Part shown: positions 34,477 to 58,670 of the stretch, one piece after another
Layout of the letters: each line of letters opens with the position of its first letter
Position numbering within the stretch: position 1 is the stretch's first letter
NCBI GenBank assembly: GCA_003220935.1
Contig: QHTT01000070.1
Span: 1-59,595 of the forward strand
Direction of reading: 5' to 3'
Source: Gemmatimonadota bacterium
Lineage (GTDB): Bacteria; Gemmatimonadota; Gemmatimonadetes; Gemmatimonadales; GWC2-71-9
DNA: 59,595 nt
Made by a program: the position numbers and the translations under genes
Notes under the pieces: model-generated
Seen by the model: the letters and a program-made list of their open reading frames with translations, nothing else
The model's database searches: none
What the model was told of the DNA's origin: nothing

Positions 34477-36132
34477 TCACCGGCCGATCGCGATCTCCAG
34501 CTTCGTCACGGACGCCGCGGGGAAGCGATACACGAACGGTGAAGCGCTCACGGCCACGCTCGCCGTGGCGGGCTCGACGCTCCGCGGGGCCTCGAACGTG
34601 TTGTGATCGTGGACGTCGCGGGCGGCGAGCGTCGTCGCCCGCACGGCGGTCACCGCCGCGCCCCGTACCGCGATCTCGGCGTCGCGCGGCTCGGTGAGGT
34701 GCGGGTTGGTGACGGTCAGCGTGAGCGCATCACGCTGCAGCGATGCCGAGCCGTTGAGCCCCCACAACGCACGCTCGCGTTGCTGCCCGTCGACCCAGCT
34801 CACGGGCGGCGCGGACGCCACCACGCGCACGGCTCGCGCGCCTTGGTGCGCCGCGTACAGCGCGAAGACGTGGTAGGTCGGCGTGACCAGGAACTTGTCT
34901 TCGTGGGCGAGGAACAATGACTGGATGCAGTTGATGAGCTGCGCGATGTTGGCCATCGCCACCTTATCGGCGTGACGATTGAAAGTGTCGAGCGTGAGGG
35001 CGGCGACCAGCGCATCGCGGATGGTCGACTGCTGCCCGAAGAGGTGCGTGGGATCCACGTTCGTCGTCATCTTGTGCCACGCGCCCCACTCGTCCACCAC
35101 CAGCTTCACCCGATGCTCGCGGTCGCTCTCCCCCATCACCTGCCACTGGGAAGTGATGAGCGACTCCATGCGGTTGGCACTGCTCAGCAGGTCGTACCAG
35201 GCCGGTTCGTCGAAGGCGAGGGCCTCACCGTTGGGGGCGCTGGAGTAATGGTGCAGCGCCCAGCCCCACATGCGATCGAAGCTGCGGCGCTCGGCCAGCT
35301 CGCGGAAGCACCGGCGCGTCCATTCCAGGTCTCCGCCGCTCGGACCGGACCCGATGAACGCGAGGTCGACGCCGTACGCCGGGACCGCCCAGGTGGCGAA
35401 GCGGCGGTACTCGGCGGCGTATTCCTCCGGCGTGAAGTTGCCGCCGCATCCCCAGGACTCGTTGCCGATCCCCCAGTACCGCACCGCGAACGGCTCCCGA
35501 TCGCCTCCGGCCGCGCGCTGCTGGGCCAAGGTCGTGCTGCCCGCGGGCGAGTTGCAGTACTCCACCCACGCCATGAAGACCCGAGCCGGGAGCGTGCGGA
35601 CGTTCACCGCGAGGTAGGGGGCGGCGCCGATGAGCCGGCAGAAGTGGATGAACTCGTGCGTGCCGAACTGGTTCGGCTCGGACTTGGCGGGCACGTCGCC
35701 CAGCGCTCGCAGGTGCGGGTCGTCGCCCCAGAAGTTGGTGCGGTGCGGGCGACGGTCCCGCGGGCCGATCCCATCCTGCCAGTCGTAGGAGTCTGCGAAA
35801 CAGCCGCCGGGCCAGCGCACTACGGCGGGATGGATCGGCCGCAACGCTTCGACCAGCGCCTGGCGGATCCCGCCGATATTCGGGACGCGGGAGCGCTCGC
35901 CCACCCACACGCCGTCGTAGACCACGCCGCCTAGGTGCTCGACGAAATGGCCGTACAGCTCGGGCGCGATCGTACCGATGGGCTCGTTTACGAGGACGTC
36001 GATGTGGGAGTCGGCAAGCCGGGCACGGCCGCCGCGCACCGCCCCACCGACCGGCCCCCAGCCAGGCGTCAGGACGCCGGCGCCGCCCGCGAGCACGGCG
36101 CCAACGAACTCGCGCCTGCCGATTGCCGTCAT
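34477..36132 (-). CDS. Alpha-L-arabinofuranosidase, GH51, Tat-exported
   Basis: The enzyme removes terminal alpha-L-arabinofuranose from arabinans, arabinoxylans or arabinogalactans. From ATG 36132 the product starts MTAIGRREFVGAVLAGGAG, a twin-arginine-like signal, so export is likely. GH51 signatures are APELYGHFVEHLGGVVYDGVW, VVRWPGGCFADSYDWQDGIG, the acid/base Glu in YWGIGNESWGCGG and the nucleophile Glu in KLVVDEWGAWH. A beta-sandwich domain closes the protein. The frame also opens at 36216 but without a signal peptide. It is divergent from the GH2 gene. Confidence 0.92.
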   Translation of the reverse strand: MTAIGRREFVGAVLAGGAGVLTPGWGPVGGAVRGGRARLADSHIDVLVNEPIGTIAPELYGHFVEHLGGVVYDGVWVGERSRVPNIGGIRQALVEALRPIHPAVVRWPGGCFADSYDWQDGIGPRDRRPHRTNFWGDDPHLRALGDVPAKSEPNQFGTHEFIHFCRLIGAAPYLAVNVRTLPARVFMAWVEYCNSPAGSTTLAQQRAAGGDREPFAVRYWGIGNESWGCGGNFTPEEYAAEYRRFATWAVPAYGVDLAFIGSGPSGGDLEWTRRCFRELAERRSFDRMWGWALHHYSSAPNGEALAFDEPAWYDLLSSANRMESLITSQWQVMGESDREHRVKLVVDEWGAWHKMTTNVDPTHLFGQQSTIRDALVAALTLDTFNRHADKVAMANIAQLINCIQSLFLAHEDKFLVTPTYHVFALYAAHQGARAVRVVASAPPVSWVDGQQRERALWGLNGSASLQRDALTLTVTNPHLTEPRDAEIAVRGAAVTAVRATTLAARDVHDHNTFEAPRSVEPATASVAVSASPFVYRFPAASVTKLEIAIGR

Positions 36133-36188
36133 GCCCGGAAGGAGAGGTAGGCGGTCACGCGCGAACCCTCGGTGATGGTCGGGTGGGG

Positions 36189-36230
36189 ACACTACAGGTG
36201 CTGGCTGCGCTGTCAAGCAGTGTTATCTTG
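36189..36230. promoter_or_regulatory. Divergent promoter region between GH51 and GH2
   Basis: On the minus strand TTGACA (36211-36216) and TAGTGT (36189-36194) are 16 bp apart and face GH51. On the plus strand TTATCTTG (36223-36230) lies 46 nt before the GH2 ATG and matches the word upstream of genes at 8220 and 54315. The two promoters nearly abut, so the two hydrolases may be co-regulated. Confidence 0.45.
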
Positions 36231-36276
36231 TCTGCTCCGGACGTCCTTCAGCTCTGTGCTTTCCGGACTCTCTGCC

Positions 36277-38739
36277 ATGCACCTCGTGCTGCGGCCTTCC
36301 CGACTTCTCCGATCACAGGCTCGCGTGACCGCTACCGTCTTGTTCGGCTTGCTCGGCCCGCGCGCCGCGGCGGCGCAGCGGAGCACGCTCGACTTTGATC
36401 GGGCGTGGCGGTTCCACCTGGGCGATGTGCCCGGGGCCCAGGAGGCCGGCTTCGACGACGCCGGCTGGCGGAGGCTGGACCTGCCGCACGACTGGAGCAT
36501 CGAGGGGGAGTTCAGCGACACCAACCCCGCCGGAGCCAACGGTGGGGCGCTGCCCGGCGGGGTGGGCTGGTACCGAAAGACCTTCTCCGTAGCCGAGCGG
36601 GACACGGGCCGCCTGGTGTTCGCCGAGTTCGACGGCGTCTACCGCAACAGCGAAGTGTGGATCAACGGGCATTACCTGGGAAAGCGCCCGTACGGGTACA
36701 GCTCCTTTCGGAACGAGCTGACACCGAACCTCCGCTACCGCCCAGCGACCAACGTGATCGCCGTGCGCGTAGACAACTCGCAACAGCCCAACTCGCGGTG
36801 GTACTCTGGCTCGGGCATCTACCGGCACGTCCGGTTGGTCACCACGGATCCGGTGCACGTCGACCAATGGGGCACATATGTCACGACGCCCGAGGTCACT
36901 GCGGCCTCGGCCCAAGTGACGATGCGGACGACCATCCGCAACGCGACGCAGGTCGACCAGCCGATCACGCTCCGGACGATCCTCTATGATGCCGCCGGCA
37001 AGCAGGTGGCGACGGCCGTATCCGAGGCCCGCGTGCCGCGCGACTCCATCACCGAGATCGCGCAGCACCTGGTCATCAGAAGCCCGACGCTCTGGTCCGT
37101 CGAGCGCCCGTACTTGTACCGGGCCGTTTCGCGGGTGATCTGCGGCGGCAGGTCGTGCGACGAGTACACCACGCCGGTCGGGGTGCGGACGTTTTCGTTC
37201 GACTCCGATCGGGGGTTCATCCTCAACGGCAAGCAGCTGAAAATCCGCGGTGTGTGCCTGCACCACGACCTCGGAGCCCTGGGCGCCGCGGTGAACACCC
37301 GTGCGCTCGAGCGACAGCTCCAGATCATGCGAGCGATGGGCGTCAACGCGATCCGCACCTCGCACAACCCGCCCGCTCCCGAGCTGCTCGACCTCACCGA
37401 CCGCATGGGCTTCATCGTGCTGGACGAGGCCTTCGACATGTGGAAGAAGGAGAAGACCAAATACGACTACCACCTGGACTGGGACGCATGGCACGTGCGC
37501 GACCTGTCCGACATGGTGCGGCGTGACCGCAATCATCCCAGCGTCTTCATGTGGAGCATCGGGAACGAGGTCATGGAGCAGTGGACCAATGACGACACCA
37601 CTGCGATTCCCATTGCTCGCGAGCTCGCCGGGATCGTGCGCCGCCTCGACCCTACCCGGCCCATTACGTCCGCGAACAACAACGGCAGTCCCGCAAACCC
37701 GCTGTTTCATGCCGGCGCCCTCGACCTGCTCGGCCACAACTACCACCACGAGGTCTGGCCGAAGCTTCCGACGCAGTTCCCGGGGGGGAAGTTCATCATC
37801 ACGGAGGCGATGTCGGCGCTCAACAGCCGCGGCTTCTACGAGCAGCCTTCCGACAGCGTAGCGAGCTACGCAACGCCGTACGTGAAGGACAGCGGACCTC
37901 AGCCAAACAAGAACTACCGGCTCTCGTCGTACGACGACCGGAAGGCATTCTGGGGCTCGCTGCACGAGGAATCGCTGCGCCTGTTCGAGCGATACCCATT
38001 CCTCTCGGGGATGTTCATCTGGTCCGGGATCGACTACCTGGGCGAGCCCACGCCATACGAATGGCCTGCGCGCAGCTCCTATTTCGGCGTTGTCGATCTG
38101 GCGGGTTTCCCAAAGGATCCTTTCTATCTGTACCAGAGCGAGTGGACGGCGCGGCCGATGCTGCACGTCTTCCCGCACTGGACCTGGACGCCCGGCGATA
38201 CCGTGGACGTGTGGGCCTACACCAACGGCGACGAGGTGGAGCTGTTCCTGAACGGCGCCTCGCTGGGCGCGCAGCGCAAGGCGCCTGACGTTTTCCACCT
38301 CATGTGGCGGGTCGCGTACACGCCGGGGACGCTGCGGGCAGTGGCGCGCAAGGCGGGGCGGGTGACGGCGACCCAGGTGGTGAGGACGGCCGGTGCGGCG
38401 GCGCGCATCGCGCTTGCGCCCGACCGCTCGGCCCTCCACGCCGACGGGAATGACCTGTCCTTCGTCACCGTGAGTGTGCTGGACCGCGCGGGCGTCGCGG
38501 TGCCGACGGCGGACCAGCTGGTACGGTTCCAGGTCAGCGGTGCTGCCCGGATCGCAGGCGTCGACAACGGCGACCAGATCAGCCATGCGCCGTTCCAAGC
38601 CGACCGCGTGCAGCTCTTCAACGGGAAGGCGCTGGTGATCGTGCGCGCGGGCGAGCGAGGGGGGACGGCTACGCTGACGGCCGAAGCCGAGGGACTGGAG
38701 TCAGCCAGGGTTCGCATCGAGCTCGGGGCGCGTCGCTGA
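36277..38739 (+). CDS. Secreted glycoside hydrolase family 2 (beta-galactosidase-like)
   Basis: This 820-aa protein starts [19 protein letters not shown] with a signal peptide ending near AAAAQ. A jelly-roll sugar-binding domain ([41 protein letters not shown]) precedes an Ig-like domain and the TIM barrel. The acid/base is Glu431 ([10 protein letters not shown]) and the nucleophile Glu510 (IITEAMSA). [14 protein letters not shown] closes the barrel. The C-terminus has the extra Ig-like domains common in the Bacteroides-type enzymes. The substrate is probably a beta-galactoside, although GH2 also includes beta-glucuronidases and others. galT follows after 20 nt. Confidence 0.9.
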
Positions 38740-38759: not shown

Positions 38760-39788
38760 ATGGTCTGGGAGCAGCGGTGGCATCCGCTGCGGCGCGAGTG
38801 GGTCATCGTGTCTTCCCACCGCAACGAGCGGCCCTGGCAGGGTGAGCGCGTGGGCGAAGCGTCCCGCCCGCTGCCGCCGTATGCGGCGGACTGCTACCTG
38901 TGTCCGGGCAACGTGCGCAGCTCCGGACGGCGGAACGAGCGCTACACCGGCGTCTTCGTGTTCGACAACGACCACCCGTGCGTCGGCGCCGCAGCGTCCA
39001 CGCAGCTCGTGGCACCGGCGGGGATCTATCGGAATCGGCCTGCCAACGGATGTGCTCGCGTCGTCTGCTTCACGCCGCGGCACGACGTCACGCTCGCCCA
39101 ACTCAGCGAGTCGGAGATCCTCGGTTTGCTGGAGGTGCTGCAAGCGCAGTACCGCGAGCTCGGCGCGCGCGACGAGGTACGGCACGTGCTCGTGTTCGAG
39201 AACAAGGGCGAGGTCGTCGGCGTCAGTAACCCTCATCCGCACTGCCAGATCTACGCGACGAACTTCGTGTTCAGGACCATCGAGCTCGAGACGGAAGCGC
39301 AGACGGCATACCTGGCCGAGCACGGCCGGCCGCTCTTCCAGGATATCCTGGCTGCGGAGGAAGCGGACGGCCGGCGTCTCCTCGTCCGGGGCGACCAGGC
39401 GCTGTCATTCATCCCCTATTTCGCCCGCTACCCCTACGAGACGTTCGTGGCGCCGCGTGCCACGCGTCCCAGCTTGGCGCACCTGACACGCTCCGAGCTC
39501 GCGGATTTCACGGCCGTGCTGGGGGAGACCCTCATTCGGCTCGACAACCTGTGGCGCATCCCGTTCCCGTACGTCCTGGTGCTGCCCCAGGCGCCGACGG
39601 ACGCATCGCCTTATCCGGGGTTCCATTTTCACATCCAGATCCATCCGCCCCTGCGCAAGCCGGGCCTCCTCAAGTATCTCGCTGGGCCGGAGATCGCCGG
39701 CGGGAACTTCTTGAACGACACGGCGCCGGAGGATAAGGCCGCCGAGCTCCGGGCGGTCTCGAGCGTGCACTACACGCGAGAGCCCTGA
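38760..39788 (+). CDS. galT: Galactose-1-phosphate uridylyltransferase
   Basis: GalT exchanges UDP between glucose 1-phosphate and galactose 1-phosphate (Leloir pathway). The 342-aa protein begins with the family pattern [23 protein letters not shown]. It has zinc cysteines CYLC (45-48), the uridylylated histidine in [10 protein letters not shown] (HPH at 159-161) and a C-terminal [10 protein letters not shown]. It lies between the GH2 enzyme and a phosphatase/kinase pair. With an L-arabinokinase-like partner it might also act on L-arabinose 1-phosphate; that is speculation. Confidence 0.93.
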
Positions 39789-39789
39789 G

Positions 39790-40854
39790 ATGGCCGGCCC
39801 CGAGCGCCTGCTCGAGCCGATCCTCTCGATCCACGAGCGCATCCGCGCCGCCGCAGTGGATGCGTGCGCTCGGGCTGCGACGGAGCAGCTCGCGGCCGTG
39901 GCGGCTGATGCCCCCGACGTAGCGGGCGGCGACACGATTTACGCCATCGACCGGCTGGGCGAGGACAGCGTCGTGCAGGGCCTCACGGAGCTGGCCCGGG
40001 AGGAACCGCTGTGCCTGGTCGCCGAAGGGCTCCCTGGCGACTCGGTCGTGCTCCCGCCCGATGCGCGCGAGACGGATTGCCGCTGGCGCCTGCTGGTGGA
40101 CCCGATCGACGGCACGCGGGGCCTTATGTATCAGAAGCGGAGCGCCTGGATCCTTACCGGCGTGGCGCCGAACCGCGGTACCGCTACCCGGTTGCGCGAC
40201 ATCGTGCTCGCCGTCCAGACCGAGATCCCACTGGTCAAACAGCATCTTTCGGATCAGCTCTGGGCGCTGCGCGGCCAGGGGATGCAGGCGTGGCGCTACA
40301 ATCGACTGTCCGGCGCGCGGGAGCGCCTCGCGTTGCGACCCTCGGCAGCCGACACCATCGCTCATGGCTTCGCTACCATCGTGCGATTCTTCCCGGGGGC
40401 GCGGGACGTCTTGGCCGCCATCGACGATGAGGTCGTTCAGGCGCTGGTGGCGCCGGTGCCAGGGAGGGCCGCCTGCTTCGAAGACCAGTATGCGTCCACC
40501 GGCGGCGAGCTGTACGAGCTGATGGCCGGTCACGACCGCTGGGTGGCGGACCTGCGGCCACTCGTCCAGCCGGTTCGCGCCGCCCACGGCCTGCCCCCGG
40601 GTCTGTGCTGCCATCCTTACGACCTGTGCACGGCGCTCATCGCCGAGGAGGCGGGCGTGATCGTGACCGATCCCACCGGAGCACCAGTCGACGCCCCATT
40701 CAGCGTGACTGCCGACGTGGCGTGGGTCGGGTACGCCAATGCGCGGTTGCGAGCTGTGGTCGAGCCGGTCCTGCAAGGCGCGCTGCGGCGCCGGGGCTTG
40801 CTGCCCCCGGTGGGACCAACAGCAGATCCTTCGCGCCTTCGGCGCTCAGGATGA
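39790..40854 (+). CDS. Inositol monophosphatase-fold sugar phosphatase
   Basis: The 354-aa protein has the metal-binding motif LLVDPIDGTRGLMYQKRSAW (motif DPxDGT) and a preceding acidic EG (LVAEGLPGD), as in the IMPase/FBPase superfamily. The second signature, near the C-terminus, would be ALIAEEAGVIVTDPTGAP. It is longer than SuhB (about 270 aa), so the substrate may differ; a sugar phosphate would suit the galT/kinase context. ATG 39790 is one base after galT. The last 11 codons and the stop are contributed by a dispersed repeat (40821-40856), so its C-terminus may be recent. Confidence 0.8.
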   Translation: MAGPERLLEPILSIHERIRAAAVDACARAATEQLAAVAADAPDVAGGDTIYAIDRLGEDSVVQGLTELAREEPLCLVAEGLPGDSVVLPPDARETDCRWRLLVDPIDGTRGLMYQKRSAWILTGVAPNRGTATRLRDIVLAVQTEIPLVKQHLSDQLWALRGQGMQAWRYNRLSGARERLALRPSAADTIAHGFATIVRFFPGARDVLAAIDDEVVQALVAPVPGRAACFEDQYASTGGELYELMAGHDRWVADLRPLVQPVRAAHGLPPGLCCHPYDLCTALIAEEAGVIVTDPTGAPVDAPFSVTADVAWVGYANARLRAVVEPVLQGALRRRGLLPPVGPTADPSRLRRSG

Positions 40855-40878: not shown

Positions 40879-40927
40879 GTCATCCTGAGCGAGCGCGCGG
40901 AACGCGCGCGAAGCGAAGGACATGATC
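40879..40927 (-). repeat. Dispersed dyad repeat, copy 4 (inverted)
   Basis: Starting GTCATCCTGAGCG and ending GCGAAGGACATGATC on the plus strand, this is the same element in inverse orientation, enlarged by an inner GCGCG/CGCGC stem. It faces copy 3 across 22 bp. Its end supplies the ATG (40922) of the sugar kinase gene. Confidence 0.85.
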
Positions 40928-42418
40928 CGGCTTCGCCGCCTCTCGGACGTTCGCGCCACGGGCGACCTCGTCTGGTTCCAGCGCGCGCTCGACCGGCTGC
41001 GAGCCCTGCGCCATGATGTGGATCCCCGGCTGCAGGGGTTCTTCTCTGATGCCTCACCCCTCTACATCGCCCGCGCGCCGGGGCGACTCGACGTCATGGG
41101 CGGAATCGCCGACTACAGCGGAGCCCGCGTCCTCGAGCTGCCGCTCGAGTGCTCGACCGCGGCGCTGCTGCAGCGCCAGGCCACGGCGCGTTGCGACCTG
41201 GCGACCCGCCGCGCGGGAGGGTGGCAGTTCTTCAGCGCTGACCTCCCGCCGCTCGTGGAGCGGGATGGGGCGCTCAGCACAGCGGCGGCACTGGCGGCCT
41301 GGTTCGCGGGACGCGAGTCCGACCGCTGGGCCAGTTACGTCATGGGCATCGTGCAGCTGTGCCTGCAGCGCGCCGTTCGAGAGGGGCGAGGCAGGACCCC
41401 GGGCCTGCGACTGCTCATCGACTCGACCGTGCCCGAAGGGAGAGGAGTCGCCTCGTCGGCGGCACTCGAAGTCGCGGCGGGAGCGGCTGTGGCCGCGAGC
41501 TTGGCAGATGACATGACGGAGACCGACCTGGCCGCGGCCTGCCAGGAGGTGGAGAACCACGTGGTCGGCGCGCCGTGCGGGATCATGGATCAGATAACCA
41601 GCGCCTGCGGCCGCCACGACCGGCTCCTCCGGTTGCGCTGCCAGCCGGGCACGATCGAGGGATACCTCGAGATCCCGGCAGGCTATCGGTTCTACGGCAT
41701 CGATTCCGGGGTCAGCCACGCGGTCTCGGGAGCCGACTATGAGACGGTTCGAACCGCAGCGTTCATGGGCTACCGGATGATTGCCGCCGCGGCCGGATTG
41801 CCGGTGCAGCGCGAGGGCGGTCGGCTGCGCATCGACGACCCGCGCTGGGGAGGCTATCTCGCCAACCTCACGGGGCCTGAGTGGGCGGCGCTCGCCAGGG
41901 GGCTACCGGAGGAGATAGCGGGGGGGGAGTTCCTGGAGCGCTACGGGGGCATTACCGATACCGTCACTGCAGTCCACTCCGAGCGCCGCTACCCAGTGCG
42001 GCCGGCCACGGGGCACCCGGTGCGCGAGCAAGCACGCGTGGACCGCGTTGCCGCGCTGCTCGGGGTGCTGGCGGACGAGCCGCAGGCGGCGGTCGAACTG
42101 GGACGTCTCATGTGCGACTCCCACAGGAGCTACGGCGCCTGCGGCCTCGGCAGCGACGGCACGGATCGACTCGTGGAGCTGGTCGCCGCCGAGGGGCCGG
42201 AGCGGGGACTGTTCGGCGCGAAGATCACGGGTGGAGGGAGCGGGGGCACCGTAGCCGTCTTCGGTAGGCGCGATGCGGCGGCGCTGGTGCGCGACGTGGC
42301 GGCCCGCTACGGCGCGGAGACCGGCCGCGAGACCGGCGTCTTCACGAGTTCCGGGCCGGGAGCGGCGGAGACCGGAGTCCTGCTGCTCGAGCCGGACGAT
42401 ATGAGCGGCGGCTATTGA
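40922..42418 (+). CDS. GHMP sugar-1-kinase, L-arabinokinase (ARA1)-like
   Basis: This 498-aa GHMP kinase phosphorylates a sugar at C1. Classical GalK has a substrate motif like GEHTDYN; here it is ARAPGRLDVMGGIADYSG (50-67), the form found in plant L-arabinokinase. Other ARA1-like segments are PEGRGVASSAALEVA (171-185, phosphate loop), ENHVVGAPCGIMDQITS (211-227), FYGIDSGVSHAVSGADY and KITGGGSGGTV. The N-terminal glycosyltransferase-like half of plant ARA1 is absent. Neighbouring GH51 and GH127 genes release L-arabinose, which supports L-arabinose as substrate; galactose remains possible because galT is adjacent. The purine-rich GAAGGA before ATG lies only one base away, too close for a good ribosome site. 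Confidence 0.85.
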   Translation: MIRLRRLSDVRATGDLVWFQRALDRLRALRHDVDPRLQGFFSDASPLYIARAPGRLDVMGGIADYSGARVLELPLECSTAALLQRQATARCDLATRRAGGWQFFSADLPPLVERDGALSTAAALAAWFAGRESDRWASYVMGIVQLCLQRAVREGRGRTPGLRLLIDSTVPEGRGVASSAALEVAAGAAVAASLADDMTETDLAAACQEVENHVVGAPCGIMDQITSACGRHDRLLRLRCQPGTIEGYLEIPAGYRFYGIDSGVSHAVSGADYETVRTAAFMGYRMIAAAAGLPVQREGGRLRIDDPRWGGYLANLTGPEWAALARGLPEEIAGGEFLERYGGITDTVTAVHSERRYPVRPATGHPVREQARVDRVAALLGVLADEPQAAVELGRLMCDSHRSYGACGLGSDGTDRLVELVAAEGPERGLFGAKITGGGSGGTVAVFGRRDAAALVRDVAARYGAETGRETGVFTSSGPGAAETGVLLLEPDDMSGGY

Positions 42419-46856: not shown

Positions 46857-46950
46857 CAGGCCCTGAATATGCCCGCGGCTGGCGTCTCTGGCGACCCTCG
46901 AGTCCCGCGACTATCGTGAAGATTCACCCTTCGAGGCAACGTTGCAGCGC

Positions 46951-48723
46951 ATGGGCGATCTCATCTCTCGCCGCGACTGGCTGGCGGCCGTGGCCGCGGC
47001 GGGCGCGGGGGCGGTGGTGGCACCGCAGTCCAGCGTCGGACCGGCTCCGGTGGGGCGCCCCGAGCCCCGTCCCATCCTGCCGCTCACGTCCACGAGCGAT
47101 GTGTTCTCGCCGAGTCATGGCCGGGCGTTCATGCGATTCAGCTTTGCCTTCCCCGAGCCGTCGGTCGAGTTCGAGGGCCACCGCTTCGGCTTTCTCGTGT
47201 TCACGCGGGAGAATGCCTACGGCCTCGACGCCAGTCGCATGACCGCTGAGCGCACGGCAGGTGGGTTGGAGATCCGCTGCACCGGCCTCGTATGGGCAGG
47301 GGGCCAGCAAACGGCCCCGGGTCGCGTGACCGCCCAGCTGCGGAAGGACGGCGACTTTCTCGAGTGGGATGTCACGGCAGAGATGGACCAGCCCATCAAG
47401 GCTGTCACTAGCGTGATCCGCGACGTGCCGCGCGGACAGGTTTCGGCGGCGGGGAACGAGCCATTCGATCCGCGCGACAACGAGCTGCTCTACGGCTATC
47501 CGTTCGGGGGCGGGGACCTGTTCGGCGGCAACACTGCCTGGAGTCTCTCGACGCCGCTCGTGATCGTGCAGCGCGCCGAGGGCGACTGCGTCTTTCTCTC
47601 GTCGCTCGACGATCGCGTCCGCGCCAAGCGCTTCTTCTTCCAGCCGGGCGAGCAGGCCTATCGCCTCGAGGCCGTGTTCGAGGCCGAAGGCTGGATCGAC
47701 CAGACCACGGTCCGAGTTCCCACCTGGCGCCTGGGCCGGAGCAAGACGCTGGACGACGCGGTGCAAGCGCACACCACCCACCTCGAGCACGCTTACCATC
47801 TCGAGCCGTGGGAGACCCGGCGCGACGCCCCGGACTGGCTGCGCCGTCTCGCGCTCGTCGTCGCGTTCCATGGCATGCACTACACCGGCTACGTGTTCAA
47901 CGACTACGCCCGCATGCTCGAGATTGCGCGGTGGGTGGCGACGCTCATCCCCCCGGACCGCGTGCTCCTCTTCCTACCAGCCTGGGACGGCCGCTATTAC
48001 TGGGATTATCCGCTGTACCGCGCTTCCGATCGCATGGGTGGCGAGGGGGGGCTGAAGCGCCTCATCCGGGAATCACAGCGCCTGGGTTACCGCGTGATGC
48101 CGATGTTCGGAGCCAACGCCGCCAATCGCCGCCAGCCGGTCTTCGCGCGGATGGCCGATGCGGCGACGCACAAGATCGACGCGGATCGCTTCGACGTGAA
48201 CTGGGTGGACTGGGACAACGACCGTCACCAGGAGGGCTGGTTGTCTTACATGAATCTCGGGGTCGCGTCGTGGCGCGACTGGCTTAGCGCGCGCATCGCT
48301 GATGTGATCGAACGCTATCACGTTGACGCGTACTTCCTCGACATCGCCGGCGGCTGGGTCAACAACCCCCAGGCCGATATGCACGAGGGAATGCGGCAGC
48401 TCGTGCACGAGCTCCGGGCCCGGTATCCGCAGGTCATGCCGTGCGGCGAGATGCATTACGACGCGCTGCTCGAGTTCATTCCGCTTTACCAGGTCGGCCT
48501 GGGGCGGGCAGCCCGCTACGCTCGCGCGTTCTCGCACTTGAGCCACGCGGCACCGGGGCTCGGCAGCTCGGGGGTGCATGAGTCCGGCTTCAGCCGCTTC
48601 CGGCACGAGACGCTGGGGCTCGCGCCTGGCACGATCCCTACCCTGACCGTGGTGGACGACACGTTCACCGGCCATCAGTCGATGATGGAGGCGGTGATCG
48701 CGCGGGCGAAGCAGCGGATGTGA
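46951..48723 (+). CDS. Tat-exported TIM-barrel hydrolase, family not assigned
   Basis: From ATG 46951 the product (590 aa) starts MGDLISRRDWLAAVAAAGAG, a twin-arginine signal. A beta-rich domain covers about residues 45-270. The second half looks like a glycosidase barrel: LALVVAFHGMHYTGYVFNDY, LLFLPAWDGRYYWDYPLY, YHVDAYFLDIAGGWVNNP (candidate catalytic Asp) and MPCGEMHYDALLEF (candidate Glu). It resembles the DUF6259-type putative glycosidases, but I could not place it firmly. It lies amid GH51, GH2, GH127 and GH130 genes, and is divergent from the TPR kinase and convergent with GH127. Confidence 0.7.
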   Translation: MGDLISRRDWLAAVAAAGAGAVVAPQSSVGPAPVGRPEPRPILPLTSTSDVFSPSHGRAFMRFSFAFPEPSVEFEGHRFGFLVFTRENAYGLDASRMTAERTAGGLEIRCTGLVWAGGQQTAPGRVTAQLRKDGDFLEWDVTAEMDQPIKAVTSVIRDVPRGQVSAAGNEPFDPRDNELLYGYPFGGGDLFGGNTAWSLSTPLVIVQRAEGDCVFLSSLDDRVRAKRFFFQPGEQAYRLEAVFEAEGWIDQTTVRVPTWRLGRSKTLDDAVQAHTTHLEHAYHLEPWETRRDAPDWLRRLALVVAFHGMHYTGYVFNDYARMLEIARWVATLIPPDRVLLFLPAWDGRYYWDYPLYRASDRMGGEGGLKRLIRESQRLGYRVMPMFGANAANRRQPVFARMADAATHKIDADRFDVNWVDWDNDRHQEGWLSYMNLGVASWRDWLSARIADVIERYHVDAYFLDIAGGWVNNPQADMHEGMRQLVHELRARYPQVMPCGEMHYDALLEFIPLYQVGLGRAARYARAFSHLSHAAPGLGSSGVHESGFSRFRHETLGLAPGTIPTLTVVDDTFTGHQSMMEAVIARAKQRM

Positions 48724-48737
48724 GAGGAGCCGGGACG

Positions 48738-51233
48738 CTAGCGCTCGGCGTCCCCGCGAATCAGCCGCAGCCCGAAGACGGTCGCGATCTGGCTCCCTGG
48801 CTTCGCTTGGAAGCGCACCGTCACCTTGCTCTTGCCACGGACTACGTCTTCGGGGAGGCGATACTCGAGATCGAAGAAACGATGCGGGTCGGTTAGGCCG
48901 AGCTGTTGGTTGCCGATGCTGCGGCCGTCCACCTGAATCTCGAAATCGGCCGGGGTGCCCCTCCGGTCGCCGCTGAAGTAGGTCGCAATGAGCACCATCG
49001 GATGTGCGGGATCCACCGACAGGTCGTAGGAGAACCACGTCCGGCCCCTGCGGCCCGGCCGGCCCAGCATTCGCTGTGGCACGGCGCCCTCGCCGGCCTG
49101 ATAATTGAATTGCCGCTCGAAGACGACCTCCCCGGGCTGCAGGTACACAACGGTAGCCGCTGCGAGTTTTCGTAGCCGTTCCGCCTCCGCTGCGTAGGCG
49201 CCCTTCTGCTGATCCCATTCGGTCGGCGTAAACAGGTCCCAGTACGTCGAGTACGTCCGGCGGTGCAGCCGGAAGAACGGTTGGAAGGCGACATCGTTCA
49301 GCTGGCCTCGGGCGTCGGGCTCGCGGCCCACGCCGTCGGTGCGGAAATGGCCGGGGGCGCCGGCGACAGGCTGCAACCAGGTCGCTACCGGATCTGCTGT
49401 CACGAACACCGGGACCTTCGGCGGCGCGGGCCGCTCCCCTTCCCCTCGGTGCCCGTCCGGCTCGGGCCCCAAGTCGCCCGCGAGCACCAGCGGGCCCCAC
49501 ATGAGCGACACGCGGTGCGGGTTGTCGGGCAGGGGCTCGAGGTGGAGCGCCTTGGGCAGCGCGACCTCCACCACGTCGCCGCTCCTCCACAAGCGCTTGA
49601 GTTTCACATACGAGCTTGCGTCGTACGGCGGGCGGCGGTACTGGCTCCGGCCGCTCTGATCGAAGCTGTCGGGCGCGGGCTCCTGACCCGGCGCCACGAC
49701 CGTCTGGCCGTTGAGCCTCACCCGGAATCCTTGGCCGGCCCAATAGGGACGGCGCAACGCCAGCGTGAATTGCTGCGGCGCCTCGAGGCGCAGCGCCAGC
49801 TTCGCAGTTTCCCCCTCGGGGAAGTCGGTTTCCATTGCCAGTTGCACGCCGGCCTTGGCCCAGGTGGCGCTGGAGGGCACGTACAAGTTCACCCAGAGCC
49901 GGCCGTCCGCCTCGTAATAGATCCCGTCGCCGTGCAGGGCGTGGCTTTCCATGCCGGTTCCCACGTCGCACGTGAAGTCCCGGAACATGTCCTGATACTC
50001 GTGCGTCACCGCCGGGCCCACCGGCACCATGTAGCACACCCGCCCGTCCTCGGGGTCGATCGACGCGAGGATGTGATTGAACAGCGCGCGCTCGTGGTAG
50101 TCGGCGTAGTGCGGGTCAGGCCAGAAGGAGAACAGCCGGCGCGTGAGCTTGAGCATGTTGTAGACGTTGCACGTCTCGGCGGTACGCCCGTCGATCCAGT
50201 CGCTCAGCTCGTCCGCCGGGCCGAAGTACTCGTCCTTGCCGTGGCCGCCGCTCGAGAAGCTGTGATGTTGCACCACGCGATCCCAGAAGAACCCGGCCGC
50301 GAGCAGGTCGGCCGGTGTGCCCGTGTAGAGGAAGCGGGCTGCCGAGCCGAGGATCTTGGGGATCTGCGTGTTGGCGTGCGTGCCGGCGAGGTCGTCCTCA
50401 TGGCGCTCGAGCGGCTCGAGGAACGCGCGGTGCTCGAACTTGTAGGAGAGCGCGAGCCAGCGCGCGTCGCCCGTGTCGGCGTACAGGTCGCACATCACCT
50501 CGTTCATGCCGCCGAACTCGGTGTTCAGCATGTGCTGTAACTGCGTGTCGTCGAGCCCGGAGAGGATGCGATCGGCCCAAGCGGCGAACTTGATCTCGAC
50601 CGCGAGCGCCGTGCGGTTCCCGGTGTGACGATACGCGTCGCGTAGCCCGGCGTACGTCTTGTGCAGTATGTACCAGGGGGACCACTCGCCGTTCAAGTCG
50701 AACGCGGCCGAGCGGATCTCACCCCGGGCCAGCTCGCCGAACGCTCTCCGGCCTCCTTTGAGCGCGCTCAGGTAGCCGTCCCCGTGGGCGTCCTGCACCT
50801 GTTTCAGCTCCCCCACGATGTAGTCCGCCCGCTGCTTGAACCGCGCGTCGCCGGTGGCGGCCCACATCAGGCTCACCGCCGAGAGGTGATGACCCGCGAT
50901 GTGACCGGTGAGGTTCCGGCCGTCTCCGTCCCAGCCGCCGTACGGCTCGGCCTTCGGCGGGAGGCCGGCGCGGTCCCGGTAGTACGCCAGCATCCGGTCG
51001 GGCTCGAGCGCGAGCAAGTAGCGGGCGTCCAGCTCCTGGGCGTGCTTGAGCGGTCCCGCCTGCAGCCGGACGGCGCTCAAGGGGAGCGGCCAGGCCTTGA
51101 CGACGTCGGATGCGCGGGCGCGGGGCGCTCGGGCCTCCGCTTCAACGAGCAGGGGTGAGTAGCCCAGCAGCGGTAGTGCCCCCGCTCCCGCGCCCAGACC
51201 GAGCTTGATGGCGTTGCGGCGCGACAGGGTCAT
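48738..51233 (-). CDS. Beta-L-arabinofuranosidase family GH127 (DUF1680), Tat-exported
   Basis: GH127 enzymes remove beta-L-arabinofuranose, as from plant extensins and rhamnogalacturonan II. ATG 51233 has GGAGG 8 nt upstream and gives MTLSRRNAIKLGLGAGAGAL, a twin-arginine signal; the frame is open further upstream but antisense-like. The 831-aa protein has NLTGHIAGHHLSAVSLMWAA, YILHKTYAGLRDAY, GGMNEVMCDLYADTGD, TAETCNVYNMLKLTRRLF (with the conserved Glu/Cys pair of the zinc-cysteine site) and a beta-sandwich C-terminus with an added malectin/CBM-like part. The symporter gene lies 11 nt upstream. Confidence 0.9.
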   Translation of the reverse strand: MTLSRRNAIKLGLGAGAGALPLLGYSPLLVEAEARAPRARASDVVKAWPLPLSAVRLQAGPLKHAQELDARYLLALEPDRMLAYYRDRAGLPPKAEPYGGWDGDGRNLTGHIAGHHLSAVSLMWAATGDARFKQRADYIVGELKQVQDAHGDGYLSALKGGRRAFGELARGEIRSAAFDLNGEWSPWYILHKTYAGLRDAYRHTGNRTALAVEIKFAAWADRILSGLDDTQLQHMLNTEFGGMNEVMCDLYADTGDARWLALSYKFEHRAFLEPLERHEDDLAGTHANTQIPKILGSAARFLYTGTPADLLAAGFFWDRVVQHHSFSSGGHGKDEYFGPADELSDWIDGRTAETCNVYNMLKLTRRLFSFWPDPHYADYHERALFNHILASIDPEDGRVCYMVPVGPAVTHEYQDMFRDFTCDVGTGMESHALHGDGIYYEADGRLWVNLYVPSSATWAKAGVQLAMETDFPEGETAKLALRLEAPQQFTLALRRPYWAGQGFRVRLNGQTVVAPGQEPAPDSFDQSGRSQYRRPPYDASSYVKLKRLWRSGDVVEVALPKALHLEPLPDNPHRVSLMWGPLVLAGDLGPEPDGHRGEGERPAPPKVPVFVTADPVATWLQPVAGAPGHFRTDGVGREPDARGQLNDVAFQPFFRLHRRTYSTYWDLFTPTEWDQQKGAYAAEAERLRKLAAATVVYLQPGEVVFERQFNYQAGEGAVPQRMLGRPGRRGRTWFSYDLSVDPAHPMVLIATYFSGDRRGTPADFEIQVDGRSIGNQQLGLTDPHRFFDLEYRLPEDVVRGKSKVTVRFQAKPGSQIATVFGLRLIRGDAER

Positions 51234-51244
51234 CGTCCCCCTCC

Positions 51245-52996
51245 TCAGCCTGTGAAGTACAGATAGGCGAGCAGGATAAGCCCGAGCACGATGCCCGAGT
51301 TGATCACGTCCCAGCGGTTCCAGCTCGCCCGCGACTGTTCGCGGCTTTCTGCCGTCACCGTGCCGAACGTCAGGTTGGTGACCTGCGCCGCCTCGGGCGC
51401 CGCCGTCGCAGAGCTCACGACGATCATCGTGAGACATGAGACGACGAAAATGAACAGGCTGTAGTACTGAAAATAGATGTTGTTGACGATCCAGAGAAAC
51501 GAGCCGGTCGGGTACCCCTGGGCGAAGCCCGCCATCCCGAGACTCACCGGCGTATCGACGGCGAGGCGGAAGGCCCCGAGCAGGAAGCCGACGATCAACG
51601 CGGCGAGGCAGCCTTTCGCGTTCAAGCGTTTGAACGTCACGCCTAGAAAGAACACGGCGAAGATCGGCGGTGCCAGATAGCCCTGGACGCCCTGCAGATA
51701 GTCGTACAACCCCTTCGAGCCCTGGATCACGGGGATCCACAGCAGACTGATGAGCACCATCGCGACGGTCGCCAGCCGGCCGACCCGGACGAGCTCGTGC
51801 TGGTTCGATTGTGGCTTCAGTCGCTGGTAGAAGTCGATCGTGAACAGCGTGGACGAGGCGTTGAACGCGCCCGCCAGCGAGCTCATCAGGGCCGCCAGCA
51901 GCCCGGCGACCACCATCCCGCGGATCCCCGCGGGCATGACAGTGGTGACCATGAGGGGGAAGGCGGCCTGCGCTACGTTGGGGATCGCGCGGCCGTCGGC
52001 GCCCACCATCATCGCGAGGCCCGGCGCCCGTCCCGTCTTCGCCAGGGCGAGGGCGATCATGCCCGGGATGATGAAAATGAACACGGGGAGGAGCTTCAAG
52101 AACGCGGCGCAGATCGATCCCCGCCGCGCCTCGCGCTCGTCCCGCGCCCCCAGCGCGCGTTGCACGATGTACTGGTCTGTGGTCCAGTACCACAGCCCGA
52201 TGATCGGGGCGCAGAACAGCATGCCGAGCCACGGGTAGTTGCCGTTGAAGTACCACGCGATCCGCGTGGGCTCCTTGACCGCGGCCCAAGTGCCGGTCAA
52301 GCCGTGGGGAACGAGCGGCTTCCACAAGTTGAACATGTCCGGATCGAGGACCGCCCGCAGCTCATGCCAGCCTCCGAGCGCCCTGAGGCCGAAGAGGGTG
52401 AGCAGCGCGGAGCCTGTCACCAGCAGTATCGTCTGCAGGGCGTCGGTGTACGCCACGGCACGCATCCCTCCCAGTACCGTGTAGAGCCCGGTCAGCAGCA
52501 CGACCGCCACCGATCCGATCCAGAAGCTGTTGAACGCTCCGATGCGCAGCTCGGGGAGCAGCACGCCGAACACGACCCCGCCCGCGAAGATGCCGACGGC
52601 GAGCTTGGTCAGCACGTAGGCCACGAGCGAGATGAGCGAGAGCACCGAGCGGGCCGCGGGGGAGAAGCGCCGCTCGAGGAACTCCGGCATGGTGAACACC
52701 ATGGTGCGGGCGTAAAACGGTACCATCACCCACCCGAGCACGAGGAGGCACCAAGCGTGCAGCTCGTAGTGCGCCAGCGCGACGCCGCTCGTCGCCCCGG
52801 CCCCGGCCAGGCCCACGAGATGCTCGGAGCCGATGTTGGACGCGAAGATCGACGCGCCCACGACGAACCAGCCGAGGTGGCGGCTCGCCAAGAAGTAGTC
52901 GTCGGCGGTGTCGCGGCGTCGTTTCAGGACCCAGGACGTGAGCGCCGCGATCGCGGCGAAGTAGCCTGCGACGATCAGCCAGTCCAGCGTGCTCAT
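51245..52996 (-). CDS. Sodium:solute symporter (SSS, sugar-type)
   Basis: This 583-aa protein has about 14 membrane helices. SSS/SGLT hallmarks are DDYFLASRHLGWFVVGASIFASNIGSEH (sodium site; in part ASIFASNIGSEHLVG), YTVLGGMRAVAYTDALQT and GLLAALMSSLAGAFNASSTLF. It resembles the SglT/YidK group that imports sugars with Na+. In an operon with GH127 (11-nt gap) and GH130 (36-nt gap), it is the likely importer of the released arabinose or other sugar. Start ATG 52996 (MSTLDWLIVAGYF). Confidence 0.92.
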   Translation of the reverse strand: MSTLDWLIVAGYFAAIAALTSWVLKRRRDTADDYFLASRHLGWFVVGASIFASNIGSEHLVGLAGAGATSGVALAHYELHAWCLLVLGWVMVPFYARTMVFTMPEFLERRFSPAARSVLSLISLVAYVLTKLAVGIFAGGVVFGVLLPELRIGAFNSFWIGSVAVVLLTGLYTVLGGMRAVAYTDALQTILLVTGSALLTLFGLRALGGWHELRAVLDPDMFNLWKPLVPHGLTGTWAAVKEPTRIAWYFNGNYPWLGMLFCAPIIGLWYWTTDQYIVQRALGARDEREARRGSICAAFLKLLPVFIFIIPGMIALALAKTGRAPGLAMMVGADGRAIPNVAQAAFPLMVTTVMPAGIRGMVVAGLLAALMSSLAGAFNASSTLFTIDFYQRLKPQSNQHELVRVGRLATVAMVLISLLWIPVIQGSKGLYDYLQGVQGYLAPPIFAVFFLGVTFKRLNAKGCLAALIVGFLLGAFRLAVDTPVSLGMAGFAQGYPTGSFLWIVNNIYFQYYSLFIFVVSCLTMIVVSSATAAPEAAQVTNLTFGTVTAESREQSRASWNRWDVINSGIVLGLILLAYLYFTG

Positions 52997-57812: not shown

Positions 57813-58670
57813 ATGACTAGGCGGCGCGATTTCATGAAAACGTTGGGTGCCGCGGCACTGGGCCACGCTCTGCGGCCCCGAGCCCCGAGCCCCGACCCCC
57901 GAGCCGTGCCTCGCAAGCTCAGTCGCATCGGGCTCGAGCTCTTCTCGGTGCGGGACGCGATGGCCCGGGACCCGGAGCGCACCCTCGCCGCCGTGCGCGC
58001 GAGCGGCTACACCGACGTCGAGCTGCTCTGGTCGTTTGGCAACTTCGGCCGCACGACCGAGCAGGTGCGCGCGGCGCTCGATAAGGAAGGACTGCGCGCG
58101 CCCTCGGCCCACTGCTCGCCGACCATCCTGTTCGTCGGATGGGACCGGAGCCTCGCCATCGCGCACCGGCTCGGGCACGAATTCTTAATCGTGCCATCCT
58201 TCACCCCGGACACGGCGCGCTCGCTCGACGACTGGCGGGAGTGGGCTGACCGCTTCAACGCCGCGGGCGCGGCCGCCCGGCGCGCCGGCATCTGGCTCGC
58301 GTTCCATAACGAGGCCGAGCACATGACTCCGATCGACGGTACGGTCCCCTACGACCTGTTCGTGCAGCGAACCGACCCGACTGTCGTCCGCCACCAGCTC
58401 GACGTCGGCAACATGGTAATGGGCGGCGGCGACCCGTTCGTCTACCTCGAGCGGTATCGCGACCGCTATTGGAGCTTTCATCTGAAGGACGTCGTCGCCG
58501 ACCACTCGCGGGACACCGAGCTCGGTACGGGAACGCTCGACTTCCGACGCCTGCTCGCGGCCGTGCCCGACATCGACCGCAAATTCTGCTACGTCGAGCA
58601 AGAGGGCGCGAAGGATTCGCTCGCCAGCGCGCGGCGGAACTGCGATTTTCTCACGAAGCTGGAGTTCTAG
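57813..58670 (+). CDS. Tat-exported sugar isomerase/epimerase-like TIM-barrel protein
   Basis: This 285-aa protein belongs to the xylose isomerase-like (AP endonuclease 2) barrel superfamily. It has a twin-arginine signal ([17 protein letters not shown]), a linker created by heptad repeats ([10 protein letters not shown]), then [42 protein letters not shown] and WSFHLKDV with likely metal ligands Glu/Asp/His. [11 protein letters not shown] holds the last Glu. The substrate is unknown. GGAGGA lies 7 nt upstream of ATG 57813. Its stop overlaps the convergent gene's stop (CTAG). Confidence 0.85.
57876..57903 (+). repeat. Heptanucleotide array inside the isomerase gene
   Basis: Four 7-nt units, CCCCGAG, CCCCGAG, CCCCGAC and CCCCGAG, lie between the Tat signal and the mature domain. 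They encode the Pro-rich RAPSPDPRA linker. Same length as in purL and proS. Confidence 0.85.

Follow-up and report, generated by a model that had tools for sequence, protein, structure and literature searches.

Which sugar is the substrate of a galactokinase-like protein that departs from GalK in its sugar-recognition motif and is encoded in one run with galT in a Gemmatimonadota bacterium? The window, by which we mean the whole stretch of 59,595 nucleotides analysed here, carries such a gene (Table 1), whose product the original prediction described as a free-standing L-arabinokinase-like kinase, likely to be annotated as galactokinase, that together with GalT could yield L-arabinose 1-phosphate and then UDP-L-arabinose in a salvage route known from plants. 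We find that the kinase belongs to a family whose genes are conserved next to those of GalT and a phosphatase, and we favour, with some reserve, a reading in which kinase, GalT, phosphatase, GalE and XylA/XylB would form a Leloir-type route from L-arabinose through D-xylose to xylulose 5-phosphate.

Table 1. Features of the window discussed in the text.
Feature	Position	Strand	Basis or remark
alpha-L-arabinofuranosidase-like glycosidase (GH51 type), divergent	34477..36216	-	PF06964, 142.7 bits
GH2 beta-galactosidase (GalB type)	36172..38739	+	NF041463, 922.8 bits (cut-off 900); start probably downstream of 36172
GalT-family uridylyltransferase, trio subtype, 342 aa	38760..39788	+	HPH active site kept
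GalT sugar loop KYLAGPE	39672..39692	+	alignment A2
putative sugar-1-phosphate phosphatase of the IMPase/FBPase superfamily, 354 aa	39790..40854	+	between galT and kinase
IMPase metal-binding motif DPIDGT of phosphatase	40099..40116	+	alignment A3
L-arabinokinase-family GHMP kinase (KIN), 498 aa	40922..42418	+	open reading frame from ATG
sugar-recognition motif ARAPGRLDVMGGIADYSG, kinase residues 50-67	41069..41122	+	alignment and motif survey
conserved glycosidase-like protein	46942..48723	+	recurs near the trio in 4/38 loci
GH127 beta-L-arabinofuranosidase-family protein	48738..51074	-	PF07944, 369 bits
sodium:solute symporter	51245..52996	-	PF00474, 270 bits

The kinase gene is real, with at least 7950 matches at E ≤ 1e-10 among the 7997 candidates listed and 38 invariant columns in an alignment of its homologues (A1, with 36 rows, some of them partial and one, L026, with a short out-of-frame stretch at its beginning). 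All blocks that had been singled out in it (ARAPGRLDVMGGIADYSG, ENHVVGAPCGIMDQ, FYGIDSG and KITGGGSGGTV) are present. Pfam recognises only GHMP domains and the galactose-binding galactokinase signature PF10509, the latter at 23.3 bits and thus barely above the cut-off of 23.1; the two other GalK-like genes of the same genome, which share 33% and 30% identity with E. coli GalK, reach 77 and 71 bits with this signature. Five galactokinase models of NCBIfam match, and in all five the kinase stays far under the cut-off, as seen with TIGR00131 (122 bits, cut-off 226.65) and PRK05101 (132 bits, cut-off 499). The closest solved relative is a protein of likewise 498 residues, 'AbGHMP' (9ulx/9uly, E 1.2e-124), and human GALK1 is matched at E 5e-21; 9ulx was not among the results of either fold search, and no AbGHMP paper was found in the open-licence literature. 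The N-terminal, glycosyltransferase-like half of plant ARA1 is absent from the 498 residues, which comprise kinase domains only, so that the protein is a relative of the ARA1 kinase domain rather than of full-length ARA1 and is indeed free-standing. Among the best 120 matches listed, JGI names include galactokinase 14 times, as anticipated, but also L-arabinokinase 13 times; with these names and the AbGHMP structure in existence, the notion that such an enzyme is undescribed in this group of bacteria is partly outdated.

For the placement of the kinase we used a 50-row tree that takes in 26 of the 38 group-A kinases and leaves aside the GalK of L049 and L057. In this tree the GalK rows separate with 100/100 support, and a clade with 94/82 support unites the window kinase and bacterial group A with 12 ARA1-type proteins from plants or algae (the EukProt record P0202 being counted among them); the kinase did not group within bacterial GalK, and its predicted kinship with L-arabinokinases has thus held up. 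At the site of GEHTDYN in GalK it has GGIADYSG, and GGIADY is found in all 26 group-A bacterial rows and all 12 plant and algal rows, while GEHTDYN or GEHVDYN stands in six of the eight GalK rows, those six being the readable ones. Of the seven weaker matches to the kinase model among Gemmatimonadota, the three that were read (G005, G047 and G151) have the GalK motif. Residues G61 and I62 of the kinase align with E43 and H44 of human GALK1, which, in this numbering, we take to hold the C6 hydroxyl of galactose; the alignments show conservation of further residues that presumably line the GALK1 pocket (R, D, Y and the D of IMDQ). L-arabinopyranose is D-galactopyranose minus C6, and the change from GEH to GGI would therefore fit L-arabinose. 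Plain galactokinase was rejected as an identity because of the scores below cut-off in the NCBIfam models, the replaced motif and the position outside GalK in the tree; judged by its sequence, the kinase is a member of the already known L-arabinokinase family, not a GalK, and L-arabinose, phosphorylated at C1, is its predicted substrate. Taken alone, the motif change would suit any galacto-configured sugar that has no C6 hydroxyl, and the kinase and its partners might act on another C6-less or 6-deoxy sugar of this configuration, such as D-fucose; we consider this very improbable in view of the L-arabinofuranosidase families encoded close by, the linkage to XylA and XylB described below, and the plant members of the family, which are described as L-arabinokinases (PMC5897480, PMC12281597).

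Identity to the kinase part of five plant or algal records is 39-43% for the window kinase and 44-51% for three other group-A kinases; E. coli GalK reaches 25-33% over shorter stretches. The clade of plant and algal L-arabinokinases (records P0121-P0208, support 100/100) is nested within bacterial group A, and this nesting suggests a bacterial origin of the plant gene, the N-terminal half being a later addition. A second group of Acidobacteriota kinases, group B (L024, L088-L094), is 34-40% identical and has the motif GGNVDYTGG in six of eight members. Two of these, L093 (GGIADYSG) and L094 (GGVADHAG), formed long branches inside group A in a quick tree and were excluded from the 50-row tree. 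Neither galT nor the phosphatase nor XylA lies beside the kinase in any of the eight group-B loci, which we kept outside the 38 loci considered here and whose kinase probably has a different substrate.

The 'gal-type run' of the original prediction was correct in galT and the kinase and incomplete in that a third gene lies between them. Its product has both the fold of the IMPase superfamily and the metal-binding motif DPxDGT, with D104, P105, D107, G108 and T109 invariant in alignment A3. The three genes form a conserved trio: across the 38 loci (L052 being the same contig and coordinates as L007, L077 the same as L012, and G160 apparently the same as G122, each counted once), GalT is found in 32 and the phosphatase in 29. 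Three of the six loci in which GalT was not seen begin within the kinase at a contig end, and in L013, L080 and L081 GalT is present and the phosphatase not beside it; wherever 32 genomes are mentioned below, these are the ones with the kinase beside galT, the phosphatase being visible as well in 29. Among 150 Gemmatimonadota genomes the phosphatase is confined to the seven that also encode the kinase and was found in no genome of the other 143 (Fisher's test, 3e-12), and among Acidobacteriota the kinase occurs in 18 of 396 genomes, 11 of these being of group A. In two phyla, phosphatase and kinase are fused in frame (L025:3797-6355 from Myxococcales and L051:9046-11448 from Gemmatimonadota), an arrangement that invites a futile cycle unless L-arabinose 1-phosphate is spared by the phosphatase. 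Hydrolysis of D-xylose 1-phosphate is the reaction that we predict for this enzyme, solely from gene linkage.

The neighbouring galT is likewise genuine, as had been assumed: its product scores 255 bits with TIGR00209 (cut-off 102) and 307 bits with PRK11720 (under the cut-off of 448), and HPH of the active site is invariant across the GalT alignment A2. Its sugar loop follows a pattern of its own. In the 18 trio-type rows the loop reads K(Y/F/H)L(A/G)GPE and is altered in all of them; in the five canonical rows (L048, L049, L050 and L057, all of Gemmatimonadota, and E. coli) it reads KF(M/L)VG(Y/F)E and is altered in none. The trio-type rows have Y changed to P in all 18 cases and V to A in 17 and to G in one; at the position of F there is Y in 16, H in one and F in one, K and E are kept, and Q is not. 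The contacts of human GALT to Glc-1-P are K334, F335, V337, Y339, E340 and Q346 (PMC5081055), of which V337 and Y339 were located in the window loop via the E. coli row of A2. Two contact positions being changed, the sugar site is changed, which fits, without proving it, a different sugar.

These findings bear on the possibility that the trio belongs to a D-galactose Leloir pathway with an unusual kinase, its association with arabinosidases being incidental. A GalB-type beta-galactosidase gene sits directly upstream of galT in the same direction and the trio GalT is the only GalT found in this genome (assembly 85% complete), so that D-galactose may share these enzymes; GalE and GalM are found near the kinase in seven and nine of the 38 loci, respectively, and the PF10509 score does exceed its cut-off. 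Set against this are the fully supported position outside GalK, the replacement of GEH by GGI, the altered loop of GalT, and the presence of a phosphatase and XylA, which would have no role in galactose breakdown. Moreover, this genome has its separate GalK homologues, and other genomes keep galT-galK pairs apart from the trio. In G151 the trio and the pair are on different contigs, and L078:3-15285 contains two parallel systems, galK-galT with a transporter and GalM, and then GalE-kinase-phosphatase-GalT with GH43 and GH51, the galK-galT pair lying ~6 kb from the trio and galK being cut by the end of the stretch examined. Such separate pairs argue against a D-galactose role for the trio, and we regard it as unlikely.

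With regard to the favoured route from L-arabinose through D-xylose, what is observed is the identity of the genes and their families, their conserved linkage and co-occurrence, and two fusions; every substrate and the order of the steps are what we infer. The kinase would phosphorylate L-arabinopyranose at C1, and GalT would turn the resulting L-arabinose 1-phosphate into UDP-L-arabinose by exchange; a GalE-type epimerase would then invert C4 and give UDP-D-xylose, which GalT would trade against the next L-arabinose 1-phosphate, freeing D-xylose 1-phosphate. The phosphatase would release D-xylose from the latter, and XylA and XylB would carry it on to xylulose 5-phosphate. The classic Leloir pathway relies on phosphoglucomutase to recover its glucose 1-phosphate. 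Because xylose lacks a C6 that could accept the phosphate, a step of that type is impossible and a phosphatase necessary, and the need for a xylose 1-phosphate phosphatase would explain the conserved third gene. Bifunctional UDP-glucose/UDP-xylose 4-epimerases are known from plants (PMC5897480), and the kinase domain of ARA1, overexpressed alone in L-arabinose-fed plants, raises UDP-L-arabinopyranose (PMC12281597).

This model was fixed ahead of the search for XylA. Among the 150 Gemmatimonadota genomes, a XylA match (E ≤ 1e-20) was found in five of the seven with the trio versus six of the 143 others (Fisher's test, 1.5e-5), the matches of the trio genomes scoring 110-119 bits and thus under the model cut-off of 533. 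The two remaining trio genomes have a XylA that is truncated by a contig end and directly adjoins galT; such pieces were sought at trio loci only, not in the 143 others. Near the kinase, XylA is encoded in nine and XylB in six of the 38 loci, and XylA in none of the four loci that have a canonical galT-galK pair; at 0.5% per locus, the nine occurrences would arise by chance with a probability of 3e-13, a rough estimate that ignores relatedness. Two XylA, one XylB and three GalE from these loci were compared with NCBIfam, and the curated cut-offs were passed by XylA of L082 and L052, XylB of L052, and GalE of L082, L016 and L078.

XylA and XylB are divergent beside galT in L004, L005, L007, L014 and L056; in L004, L005, L014, L054 and L056 the divergent XylA is ~100 bp or less away from galT, and the gene order in L012 is kinase-GalT-XylB-XylA. 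Kinase, GalT and GalE occur together in L013, L016, L026, L078, L080, L082 and L085, with GalE immediately before GalT in both Dictyobacter loci (L016 and L026). GalE and XylA adjoin the trio in one and the same locus in L082 only, an Acidobacteriota locus with GalT-phosphatase-kinase-GalE-XylA in one direction, the gaps inside this enzyme block measuring -4 to 132 bp. The block follows, in the same direction, a sugar ABC transporter, of which the ATPase has AraG and the permease a ribose permease as best-scoring model, both below cut-off. Within the fetched stretch, 29 of the 38 loci have no XylA. Of the 23 genomes to which the first loci belong, 22 gave a XylA match, strong (E ≤ 1e-100) in 16; the remaining matches are weaker, are fragments or may stem from isomerases of another type. 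The genome of the window has XylA and XylB together on contig C50, this XylA being 82% identical to a linked one. As XylA lies apart from the trio here and in most loci, their association could stem from a common role in arabinoxylan use. In the genome G165, contigs C57 and C138 contain an identical XylA match of 37 residues, which is probably an assembly duplication. The window itself encodes, at 57813-58670, a xylose-isomerase-like TIM-barrel protein (PF01261, 72 bits), for which no homologue at E ≤ 1e-8 was found in the trio loci searched.

That XylA is not seen in the fetched stretch of 29 of the 38 loci also favours a salvage of the plant type, in which kinase and GalT would make UDP-L-arabinose (or UDP-xylose) for glycans, the phosphatase would limit toxic sugar phosphates, and XylA and XylB would be incidental companions through shared plant polymers. 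The homology to ARA1 and the glycosidases surrounding the trio agree with it, and accumulation of UDP-L-arabinose is described as toxic in plants (PMC12281597). However, the UDP-arabinopyranose mutase family PF03214 was not found in this genome (85% complete) nor in 20 of 21 genomes searched, no arabinosyltransferase family was found among 37 neighbourhood proteins scanned with Pfam, and XylA lies within the trio's own run in L082 and divergent near galT in L004, L005, L014, L054 and L056. The L-arabinose isomerase gene araA was found neither in this genome (85% complete) nor in any of the 32 genomes with the kinase beside galT, many of which are draft assemblies, so that L-arabinose would be without the known isomerase route; it is present in one of six group-A genomes without visible galT and in five of eight group-B genomes (the 32 genomes versus group B, Fisher's test, 8.5e-5, uncorrected for relatedness and incomplete assemblies). 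With araA in only five of the 143 non-trio genomes of Gemmatimonadota, the gene is rare across this phylum and its loss is uninformative within it. Salvage to UDP-L-arabinofuranose was rejected as the main reading because PF03214 was not found in this genome, and salvage in the wider sense appears rather doubtful to us. Of what had been proposed at the outset, L-arabinose 1-phosphate and then UDP-L-arabinose are kept as likely first products, and UDP-L-arabinose as the end product of a salvage is given up, PF03214 not having been found in this genome, in view also of the phosphatase and the xylose genes. The phosphatase-family third gene, and XylA, XylB, GalE and sugar transporters alongside it in some relatives, point instead to catabolism through xylose.

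The wider neighbourhood of the trio includes glycosidases. The GH51-type open reading frame scores 203 bits with ArfA of NCBIfam, under the cut-off of 625, and its assignment to GH51 is interpretive; the open reading frame of the GH127 protein extends to 52325, with a catalytic domain that starts near 51074. The conserved glycosidase-like protein has no Pfam or NCBIfam family match, recurs in L005, L051 and L056, and may represent an undescribed glycoside hydrolase family. The symporter has close homologues near the trio in L004, L006, L014 and L084, which makes five of the 38 loci with the window included; in L084 it directly precedes galT, and it is a candidate pentose transporter.

L-arabinose is among the main plant cell-wall sugars. 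We found no description of a bacterial L-arabinokinase or of a bacterial L-arabinose 1-phosphate uridylyltransferase in the open-licence literature, and, in the titles and abstract openings of the papers listed there, no earlier report of an arabinose-Leloir-UDP-xylose-xylose isomerase pathway and none that links L-arabinose, xylose 1-phosphate, UDP-arabinose and GalT in a pathway. That the route is widespread and undescribed, takes the place of AraBAD in five or more phyla (Gemmatimonadota, Acidobacteriota, Chloroflexota, Myxococcota and Abditibacteriota), and that plant ARA1 descends from the bacterial kinase, is a broader proposal that we have about equal grounds to accept and to doubt. If the model of the route is right, several poorly cultured phyla would use L-arabinose by a route invisible to present annotation, which often names the kinase 'galactokinase', calls the transferase 'galT' and treats the phosphatase as a generic relative of inositol monophosphatase, so that an organism without araA appears incapable of using L-arabinose. 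It would also mean a nucleotide-sugar route for pentose catabolism, a function for the conserved phosphatase and a hint at the origin of the plant arabinokinase.

Among known systems, AbGHMP is the closest solved relative of the window kinase and shares its sugar motif. With plant ARA1, and with the salvage by ARA1 and USP, the kinase has in common the motif GGIADYSG, the predicted reaction and the sequence similarity of the kinase part noted above. It differs in that ARA1 is described with an N-terminal glycosyltransferase-like domain (PMC12281597), that the plant system uses a UDP-sugar pyrophosphorylase where uridylyl transfer in the bacteria is probably due to GalT, and that a phosphatase and, at some loci, xylose genes are linked to the kinase, the bacterial system being likely catabolic. 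The Leloir pathway has the C1 kinase, GalT-type exchange and GalE-type C4 epimerisation that the proposed route would share with it, as well as the GalM seen near the kinase at some loci; it is distinguished from the proposed route by the arabinokinase-family kinase, the GalT with an altered sugar loop and the pentose predicted as its sugar in place of a hexose, by an IMPase-family phosphatase at the place of phosphoglucomutase, and by XylA and XylB downstream. From AraBAD, finally, the route differs in that no AraA was found in the 32 genomes with the kinase beside galT and that it would pass via nucleotide sugars and D-xylose, whereas, if the model holds, both take up L-arabinose as their sugar and arrive at xylulose 5-phosphate as their end product.
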